Source of the DNA: Nocardioidaceae bacterium
GTDB taxonomy: Bacteria > Actinomycetota > Actinomycetes > Propionibacteriales > Nocardioidaceae
DNA: 35,697 nucleotides
Reading direction: 5' to 3'
Assembly (NCBI GenBank): GCA_025980475.1
Contig: JAICXL010000022.1
Location: 1-35,697 of the forward strand
Notes under the pieces: model-generated
Seen by the model: the letters and a program-made list of their open reading frames with translations, nothing else
What the model was told of the DNA's origin: nothing
The model's database searches: none
Shown: positions 21,588 to 24,057 of the stretch, piece after piece
Position numbering within the stretch: position 1 is the first letter of the stretch
Layout: every line of letters starts with the position of its first letter
Position numbers and translations under genes: made by a program

Positions 21588-22082
21588 ATGATCGGCTCCG
21601 TGACCTCCCCAGGCGAGCTGCGCATCGGCATCGGCAGCGACGTGCACCGCCTCGCCGAGGGACGGCCGATGCGCATCGCCGGCCTCGACTTCCCCGACGA
21701 GCCGGCCGGCCCCGAGGGCCACTCCGACGGCGACGTGGTGCTGCACGCGGTCTGCGACGCGCTGCTGTCGGCGGCCGGCCTGGGCGACCTCGGCAGCAGC
21801 GTCGGTACGACGGACCCGCGCTGGGCCGGCTCGCCGAGCGACGAGCTCCTCGCCGACACTTTGCGACGCGTGCGCGCCGCAGGGTGGCAGGTCGTGAACG
21901 TCGCGGTCCAGCTGATCGGCAACCGGCCCCGCCTCGGGTCGCGCCGTGCCGAGGCGGAGCAGGGCCTCGCCGACCGGCACGGCATCACCGTCTCGGTCTC
22001 CGCGACCACCACCGACGGCCTCGGGCTGACCGGACGCGGTGAGGGCCTCGCCGCGATCGCGACCGCCCTGCTGCAGCGATGA
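21588..22082 (+). CDS. ispF: 2-C-methyl-D-erythritol 2,4-cyclodiphosphate synthase
   Basis: 164 aa, the normal size of IspF, which closes CDP-methylerythritol phosphate to the cyclodiphosphate in the non-mevalonate isoprenoid pathway and works as a trimer. Metal ligands are present: Asp18 and His20 in GSDVH, and His53 in [11 protein letters not shown]. The CDP-binding block [15 protein letters not shown] is intact. The FPDTDP loop reads SVGTTDP, an actinobacterial-type variation. ATG 21588 is used; GTG 21600 is possible, and neither has a good ribosome site. The last 4 bp overlap ispD (ATGA at 22079-22082). The order ispF-ispD is the reverse of the usual actinobacterial order, and the pair runs opposite to carD and cysS. 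Confidence 0.93.
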
Positions 22083-22819
22083 CCACGGCGCCCACCGCCC
22101 CCGCCACACGCGCTGCGGTCGTCATCCTCGCCGGCGGCTCGGGCAGCCGGGTCGGCGCGGGTGTCAACAAGGTGCTGCTGCCACTCGGCGGGCTGCCGAT
22201 CCTGGTGCACTCGCTGCGCACCGCCCTCCTGGTCGACGGCGTGCACCGGCTGGTGGTCGTGGTCCGCCCCGAGGACCGTGACGAGGTCGCCGCGGCCGTC
22301 GAGCCCCACCTCGGCGAGCACGACCTGTGGCTGGTCGACGGTGGTGCGCAGCGGCACGACTCCGAGTGGCAGGCGATCCGCGTGCTGCGCCCCGACATCG
22401 AGGCCGGCGAGCTCGACGTGGTCGCGATCCACGACGCCGCCCGCCCGCTGGCCCCCGCGTCCCTGTTCGCCTCGACGATCGCCGCGGCGGCCGAGCACGG
22501 CGGGGCGATCCCGGTGGTCCCGACGACCGGGCTGCTGCCCCGCGAGCCAGGTCAGCCCGGCATCCCCCTTGGCGTGGTGGCCGTCCAGACCCCGCAGGCC
22601 TTCCGCGCAGAGGCCCTGCTGGCGTCGTACCTCCGGGCCGACGCCGACGGCTTCACCGGCACCGACACCGCCAGCTGCCTGGAGCGCTACGCCGAGTCCG
22701 AGTCCGGGTCCGGGCCCGGGGTCCGGGTCGCCGCGGTGCCGAGCCTGGCGAGCAACCTGAAGGTGACCTTCCCCGAGGACGTTCGGCTCGCCGAGGCGCT
22801 GCTGGACCTGGTCAGCTGA
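22079..22819 (+). CDS. ispD: IspD homologue A, keeps the CTP-binding half of the active site
   Basis: 246 aa cytidylyltransferase, coupled to ispF by ATGA. IspD joins CTP to methylerythritol 4-phosphate (MEP). CTP-side features are present: LAGGSGSR (Arg24), Lys31 where PKQ normally stands, GGAQRHDS (Ser95), HDAARP (Asp119), QTPQ (Thr171) and NLKVTFPED (Lys228). The beta-arm that carries Thr140 and Arg157 in E. coli is altered: the T-D-T-x-K block reads TTGLL, and the position of Arg157 is a Pro in a segment about five residues shorter. So the MEP-phosphate residues appear lost. A partner that supplies them may be the convergent gene at 22812-23351. The name rests on fold and on the ispF linkage; another sugar-phosphate cytidylyltransferase is a less likely alternative. 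Confidence 0.85.
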
Positions 22820-23351
22820 CGCCCTGGCTGGCGCTCATCGCCTCGAGCAGGGCTAGGTCGGCCTGCTCGCCGGCGCGGCGGCCGAGCGGCGGGGCGTCGA
22901 GCAGGCGTACGGCGCCGCCGGCCCGCAACCGCTGCACCAGCAGGGCGAAGTCGTCGGTGTCCGGCGGCACGGCCATCTCTGCGACCACGGCCGGCGGCAG
23001 CACGACCGGGGAGCTGACCACCACGTGGGCGTCCCGGTCGACGGTGGCGCCGACGAAGCCGTCGGTGACCTGCTTGAGGGTGTCGGTGACCGGCCGGCAG
23101 CCGGCCACGACCTCGCCGGAGGCCGCCGCCGCGACCGCCGCGGCGATGAAGTCCGGCGGCGTCAGCGGGCAGAGCGGGTCGTGCAGCACGACCGGGCGGC
23201 CCGACGCGCGCAGCTCGTCCCACGGCACGTTGAAGTCGACCAGCTGCACGCCGGCCTCCTCGAGCGCGAAGCTCGCGGCCGCGACCAGGGACTCCCCGTG
23301 CACCAGCGCGAAGGGCAGCGACCCGCGGCCGGTCACCGGGACGACGCCCAA
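22812..23351 (-). CDS. IspD homologue B, degenerate CTP site but intact MEP-binding arm
   Basis: 179 aa from TTG 23351; shorter than IspD (about 230). Homology to IspD is visible from [15 protein letters not shown] (HDAARPLTPP in IspD) through PVTDTLK (Thr91, Lys93) to TVDRDAH (Arg106), the arm residues matching E. coli Thr140 and Arg157. In contrast the nucleotide loop reads [12 protein letters not shown] without the G-x-G-x-R pattern or Lys27, the central GG-x-x-R-x-x-S segment is absent, QTPQ is SSPVV, and the N-x-K-x-T block near the C-terminus is missing. It cannot bind CTP in the usual way. It lies behind carD, the normal ispD position. Start is uncertain: a CTG at 23408 overlapping the carD stop would add 19 residues. 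It converges on ispD with an 8 bp overlap. Confidence 0.8.
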
Positions 23352-23404: not shown

Positions 23405-23890
23405 TCAGGAGGCGAGCACCTCGTCGAGGATGGTCTCGGCCTTGTCCTCGTTGGTGTGCTCGGCGAGTGCCAGCTCGGAGACGAGGATCTGGCGCGCCTT
23501 GGCCAGCATCCGCTTCTCGCCGGCCGACAGCCCGCGGTCGCGCTCGCGGCGCCACAGGTCGCGGACGACCTCGGCGACCTTCATCACGTCACCGGAGTGC
23601 AGCTTCTCGAGGTTGGCCTTGTAGCGGCGCGACCAGTTGGTCGGCTCGTCGGGGACGGTGGCCCGCAGGACGTCGAAGACCCGGTCCAGCCCCTCCTTGT
23701 CGACCACGTCCCGCACTCCGACCAGGTCGAGGTTGCAGGCGGGCACGCGGACCACGAGGTCCTGCTGCGCCACGATCCGGAGGACGAGGTACTGCTTCTC
23801 CTCCCCCTTGATCTTGCGCATCTCGATGTCCTCGATGACCGCAGCCCCGTGATTTGGATAGACAACCGTTTCGCCGACGGTGAAAGTCAT
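23405..23890 (-). CDS. carD: CarD family transcriptional regulator
   Basis: 161 aa, the standard length of actinobacterial CarD, which binds RNA polymerase and promoter DNA to stabilise open complexes, chiefly at rRNA promoters. The N-terminal RNA-polymerase-interaction domain reads [35 protein letters not shown], and the C-terminal helical DNA-binding domain contains [35 protein letters not shown] and [13 protein letters not shown] 23890 is clear from homology, with GGAAAGGGG about 10 nt upstream; the open frame runs further upstream but that part is unrelated. The ispD-like gene follows on the same strand beyond a hairpin. Confidence 0.95.
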
Positions 23891-23916
23891 GTAGCTGAAC
23901 CCCTTTCCAGGTGACC

Positions 23917-23922
23917 AGTCTA
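23917..23922 (-). promoter_or_regulatory. -10 box for carD
   Basis: TAGACT on the minus strand would start transcription near 23910, giving a leader of about 20 nt that contains the carD ribosome site. No convincing -35 is seen. Confidence 0.4.
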
Positions 23923-24057
23923 ACACGAGTCGGGGACTGCCCTTTGCGCGTTTGTGCAGGTCAGAGGCCACATTGGGTCTTGACAACGACGATCTTCTGT
24001 GCGTCCGGGCGGTGGTTCGCCGCCGATCCGGGCAGGGTCTGGTCAATACTTCGGCCC

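Follow-up and report, generated by a model that had tools for sequence, protein, structure and literature searches.

The stretch analysed here, referred to as the window, comprises 35,697 nucleotides of contig JAICXL010000022.1 from a Nocardioidaceae bacterium (assembly GCA_025980475.1) and carries two convergent genes of the IspD family, designated A and B, between ispF and carD (Table 1). A starts with ATG and overlaps the stop codon of ispF by 4 nt, the 3' ends of A and B share 8 nt, and B starts with TTG at 23351, 53 nt beyond the stop codon of carD. Both proteins passed the cut-off of the Pfam IspD model PF01128 (27 bits), B by a very small amount, and neither was recovered by the NCBIfam ispD equivalog TIGR00453, for which A scored 140.5 against a cut-off of 181.3 and B was absent from the matches. 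The ribitol-5-phosphate cytidylyltransferase model NF001183 gave A 75.9 bits against a cut-off of 166. Since A lies under the equivalog cut-off and B barely above that of Pfam, the split can readily go unnoticed in routine annotation.

Table 1. Features of the locus, in positions of the window.
Feature	Position	Strand	Evidence
ispF, later MEP-pathway gene	21588..22082	+	PF02542 172.2 bits; TIGR00151 above cut-off
A, putative CTP-site subunit of IspD (armless IspD), 246 aa	22079..22819	+	PF01128 130.9 bits
A P-loop with Arg24 (E. coli Arg20) and Lys31 (Lys27)	22127..22171	+	Residues kept in 104/105 A rows
A residues 148-165, shortened beta-arm remnant without Thr140/Arg157	22520..22573	+	Alignment
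B, putative arm-donor subunit of IspD (P-loop-less IspD), 179 aa	22812..23351	-	PF01128 27.7 bits
B residues 86-106, arm with Asp90-Thr91-x-Lys93 and Asp105-Arg106	23034..23096	-	Thr140, Arg157 107/107 each
carD, upstream neighbour of B; ORF start codon uncertain	23405..24046	-	CarD_C 127.1 bits

Active-site residues were counted in 105 A rows, 107 B rows and 31 canonical IspDs aligned to E. coli IspD, whose numbering is used for the counts; the rows are not independent, as one genome may appear both as a G genome and as a named locus. Arg20, Lys27, Arg85, Ser88, Asp106, Arg109, Asp139, Arg157, Thr165 and Lys213 were each present in 31/31 canonical enzymes and Gly82 in 30/31, the Thr140 position was occupied by Thr in 26 and by Ser in 5, and Lys142 and Asp156 were found in 19/31 and 27/31, respectively. 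The A rows kept Arg20, Lys27, Gly82, Arg85, Ser88, Asp106 and Thr165 (104/105 each), Arg109 (105/105) and Lys213 (103/105), and had lost the arm residues, with Thr140 and Lys142 in 0/105 and Asp139, Asp156 and Arg157 in 1/105 each; the lone Arg157 came from row L182, mis-cut as the last 300 residues of a long frame, which was also the row lacking Arg20 and Lys27. The CTP contacts named for B. subtilis IspD, i.e. the P-loop, Arg15, Lys22, Gly80, Ser86 and Lys209 (PMC5099578), match residues that A retains. The reverse was found for B, in which Arg20, Lys27, Gly82, Arg85 and Arg109 were each present in 0/107 rows and Ser88 in 3/107, Lys213 was replaced by Arg and Arg109 by Cys in 107/107, Thr165 was Ser in 98/107 and Thr in 4/107, and Asp106 was kept throughout (107/107). 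The arm of B was preserved, with Asp139, Thr140 and Arg157 in 107/107, Asp156 in 106/107 and Lys142 in 104/107, the respective residues in the window being Asp90, Thr91 and Arg106, Asp105 and Lys93. The canonical single-chain pattern was found in neither kind, Thr140 being missing from every A row and Arg20 and Lys27 from every B row. Because it is fixed in roughly 100 A and 100 B rows, the complementary pattern is, on this alignment, not due to chance. The arm stretch of A was variable, with 0/18 invariant columns versus 36/228 elsewhere, and the arm core of B was the better conserved part of that protein, with 7/21 invariant columns versus 12/158 for the rest in a 27-row alignment and 5/21 versus 24/158 in a 62-row alignment.

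The residue numbering of the preliminary description, which placed the CTP site of A on Arg24, Lys31, Asp119, Thr171 and Lys228 and the arm of B on Thr91 and Arg106, was correct, these positions being kept in 103-105 of 105 and in 107/107 rows, respectively. Its statement that A lacks Thr140 and Arg157 also stood, but not their placement on Gly151 and Pro163: Asp139 aligned with Gly151, Thr140 with Leu152 and Arg157 mostly with a gap. The shortened loop of A aligns ambiguously, and Thr140 and Arg157 are missing under either alignment. The loss of Arg20, Lys27 and Lys213 that it had described for B was likewise recovered, but needed qualifying as something other than simple loss throughout, given the kept Asp106, the Arg at position 213 and the predominant Ser at position 165.

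Single-chain models of A and B were predicted with AlphaFold2 from 62-row alignments. The model of A (pLDDT 93.5, pTM 0.91) has no strands from 149 to 166, the expected place of the arm, and that of B (pLDDT 93.8, pTM 0.88) has four strands within residues 81-118, corresponding to the arm; as modelled, B folds confidently as an arm-bearing IspD and A is armless. Foldseek searches of the PDB gave B. subtilis IspD as the best match for A (TMq 0.82) and mycobacterial IspD for B (TMq 0.72-0.75 in the top five), and the 50 matches listed per query were all IspD or TarI-type proteins, together with human ISPD for B. Median dN/dS was 0.218 for B (38 pairs of relatives) and 0.247 for A, by which measure B is under purifying selection. 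The possibility that B is a pseudogene was discarded on the basis of dN/dS and arm conservation.

The distribution of both genes was determined in 294 Nocardioidaceae genomes. A, counted at E <= 1e-40, was present in 195/294 genomes, setting aside G111 and G117, whose matches were to other IspDs, and scoring G271 and G314, in which A is frame-split, as A-present. Strong B matches likewise numbered 195/294, and a further 13 of lower strength (E 1e-5 to 1e-14) were not counted. Both genes were found in 194 genomes, A only in one, B only in one and neither in 98, so that the co-occurrence suggested beforehand as a check on related genomes was borne out. The A-only genome (G063) carries a shrunken B that retains the arm beside A, and the B-only genome (G023) is a fragmented draft. 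That B might be a chance ORF opposite A was ruled out by the 195 strong matches. At E <= 1e-20, B was found class-wide in 22/394 genomes, every one belonging to the Nocardioidaceae. A scan of the genome collection yielded 165 B relatives, of which 80 were kept as named loci; these 80 belonged to Nocardioidaceae or to MAGs with a name at higher rank only, and the nearest to the window's B among them was in a Marmoricola MAG (L125, 61%). A lies on the facing strand in 79/80 named loci, the 80th ending with its contig, and the two genes are within 200 nt of each other in 75/79 and 0.4-2.5 kb apart in the other four. A first set of 26 A-bearing genomes had both genes on one contig in 25 cases and on separate contigs in G001.

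In 63 of the 80 named loci the neighbourhood had carD, A on the facing strand and ispF accompanying A; the others had ispF on the opposite strand (5), carD and A only (10), A and ispF only (1) or carD only (1). Canonical ispD genes of related genomes follow carD and either face ispF or are followed by it (e.g. L217, L221, L225, L097-L110), and B occupies this canonical ispD slot after carD, with A added. Phylogenetic analysis recovered A and B as one clade each (100/100 each). In the unconstrained tree A fell next to the IspDs of E. coli/B. subtilis and B on the side of the actinobacteria; branches were long, and a constrained tree with A and B as one clade was not rejected (p-AU 0.325); an origin of both from a single duplication is therefore neither supported nor excluded by the tree.

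Full IspD matches were defined as genome-wide matches to PF01128 at E <= 1e-20. Exactly one was present in 135/194 A+B genomes, this lone match being taken as A, and two or more in 58/194, both of them A copies in G017; G271 had none, because its A is frame-split. The check suggested beforehand, whether any other full IspD exists, was favourable in the 135 genomes, and some others carry further IspD candidates beside the pair. B of the window's own genome went unreported in the genome-wide search, which could therefore also overlook a further divergent IspD. Extra copies included L118 (G020), an IspD-SDR fusion by Pfam, with which L119 and L121-L123 group, and additional shorter matches in frames of 256-257 aa in G008 and G075. 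The window's own genome, a draft of 92.8% completeness in which the PF01128 search is insensitive to divergent copies, gave A and two further matches of 35.8 and 19.4 bits that cover the N-terminal half only. A complete IspD elsewhere in this genome was considered and rejected on these grounds, the 35.8-bit match lying in a 500-aa frame, as is presumably expected of GlmU. Genomes lacking the pair had a full IspD match in 93/98 cases; none was found by this search in G086, G104, G177, G193 and G298 (58-96% complete).

The IspD-SDR fusion type, which we take to be Bcs1/TarIJ-like, is represented by L118-L123, L222 and L224. In four genomes (G024, G027, G030 and G036) carD and ispF are near neighbours, the search found no ispD in the interval, and the only full IspD match is of the IspD-SDR type, which may serve as IspD there. 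G313 belongs to a genus in which A+B is otherwise common; it lacks both A and a strong B and carries a full IspD (L219) that groups with the IspD-SDR clade. Among pathway partners, IspF was found in 58/58 genomes tested and DXR in 18/20, including 15/17 of those bearing A; the DXR search gave no match in G031 or in the draft genome of the window. For G313 and most of the A+B genomes tested, the PF02670 match of DXR is divided into two closely spaced pieces, spanning about 1-58 and about 77-129 (e.g. G004:C44:4992-5306), which points to an in-frame deletion in the NADPH-binding domain specific to this lineage; the match is unbroken in G027 and G030.

Seven genomes (G139, G153, G198, G200, G213, G267 and G075) carry the arrangement carD-B1-B2 facing A, in which B1 is armless (7/7) and B2 has the motifs DTVK and GT(I/L)DR (7/7). 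In quick trees with SH-aLRT support, some branches of which are weak, A and B2 of these genomes both cluster with the G022/G033 types. There the B1 genes join B of the Nocardioides type (99); six of them form a group (94), and that of G075 is loosely placed inside. Between G139 and G213, dN/dS was 0.135 for A, 0.106 for B2 and 0.404 for B1. A and a matching B would thus appear to have travelled together, with the resident B, once relieved, losing its arm; an old duplication with differential loss is a possible alternative. The armless B1 genes (L214-L216, L252-L255) are IspD remnants without nucleotide loop or arm whose ORFs are still open. On the single contig of G063, A is accompanied by a B ORF of <=142 aa (L257:2116-2541, + strand, equal to L227:1008-1433) in which the arm is retained and the HDPLCPL core is gone; longer B forms occur in the G031/G033 types. 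Frame splits were seen in four one-contig genomes, in A of G271 and G314 (L212, L213) and in B of G087 and G305 (L256, L258), and are either sequencing error or decay. A possible, if rather doubtful, extension is that the IspD arm is a separable and exchangeable module, with B able to shrink to an arm-only form of <=142 aa as in G063, A and B moving as a unit between lineages and the leftover armless B1 taking on a second, arm-independent role.

A and B very probably constitute an obligate asymmetric heterodimeric IspD with one active site, to which B donates the MEP-binding arm. From homology, complementary conservation, co-occurrence, synteny, purifying selection and predicted folds, we infer that the two proteins pair physically, that the arm is donated in trans and that only the pair is active. 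The pair would catalyse MEP + CTP -> CDP-ME + PPi as the IspD of the organism. A, its beta-arm lost, would bind CTP-Mg via the P-loop, Arg24, Lys31, Arg92, Asp119, Thr171 and Lys228; B, lacking its nucleotide loop and a large part of the N-terminal half, would reach with its retained arm across the CTP site of A, where Thr91 and Arg106 would hold MEP. The site of B itself would be dead, and A would have no arm with which to serve it. The heterodimer is the best reading because of the complementary degeneration, the near-perfect co-occurrence and the exceptions provided by G063 and the tandem-B genomes, and the central claim of the preliminary description, that each paralogue keeps the active-site half lost by the other, is supported by the 105 A and 107 B rows, by co-occurrence and by the single full match in 135/194 genomes. 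Several findings count against it: B still has Asp58, Ser114 and Arg159; arm donation alone leaves the persistence of armless B1 in seven genomes unexplained; two or more IspD-like matches are present in 58/194 A+B genomes; the DXR search missed in G031 and the draft genome of the window; and A or B is frame-split in four genomes.

The conserved core residues of B and the armless B1 kept in seven genomes favour an unlikely alternative in which B is an allosteric pseudoenzyme activator of the prozyme type, whose binding switches on a weak but complete site in A, as described for trypanosome AdoMetDC and deoxyhypusine synthase (PMC5201418, PMC3663545). B lacks nucleotide-site residues, one of two features that such a role would need, the other being that activity depends on the partner; however, its Thr140 and Arg157 are fixed in 107/107 rows, the B of G063 keeps the arm with the core gone, and the model of A shows no substitute for an arm. 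Were the arm dispensable here and A alone the IspD, B would be a vestige of the ancestral carD-linked ispD in the course of decay, consistent with its position in the ancestral slot, the loss of much of its fold and the frame splits in G087 and G305. This is exceedingly improbable in view of the low dN/dS of B, the invariance of its arm residues over a deep clade and the strong B in 194/195 A genomes, with an arm-bearing remnant in the 195th. It is also very unlikely that the pair makes another CDP-alditol, e.g. CDP-ribitol, with IspD activity coming from elsewhere. IspD and TarI do form one superfamily and IspD-SDR fusions occur in several relatives, but A overlaps ispF and scores far under the cut-off of NF001183, 135/194 A+B genomes have only one full IspD match, and 93/98 pair-lacking genomes possess a full match.

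IspD, whose described forms are homodimeric, is essential and is a target for antibacterial agents and herbicides. Thr140 and Arg157 reportedly act in trans in the E. coli IspD structures of Richard et al.; a statement to this effect was not found in the literature searched, nor was any report of a two-gene or heterodimeric IspD, most subscription papers lying outside that search. In known IspDs, the arm is a hook linking two monomers whose interface constitutes the active site (PMC11796317), it holds the MEP site (PMC11770629), and the beta-meander is the major dimer contact (PMC5099578). The resolution of a homodimer into unequal paralogues is a principle known from other enzymes (PMC5201418, PMC3663545). 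A shared active site split over two genes would be a clear-cut example of the conversion of a homodimer into an obligate heterodimer, and would allow a direct test of which subunit gives which residue, inseparable in a homodimer.

The pair resembles homodimeric IspD (E. coli YgbP, B. subtilis 5HS2, mycobacterial 2XWL/3Q80) in fold, in the CTP site of A, in the arm residues of B and in the carD/ispF neighbourhood of actinobacterial relatives, but differs in having two unlike subunits, the armless A and the P-loop-less B, with one predicted active site, rather than two identical subunits with two. The IspD-SDR fusion proteins share the IspD domain and the bacterial family, but join a full IspD domain to a short-chain dehydrogenase in one protein and form a separate clade. 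The trypanosome AdoMetDC-prozyme and deoxyhypusine synthase pairs likewise join an impaired enzyme to a catalytically dead paralogue; these are other, eukaryotic enzymes, however, and the dead paralogue there is described as an activator (PMC5201418, PMC3663545), whereas here it would share the active site through a division into CTP site and MEP-binding arm.
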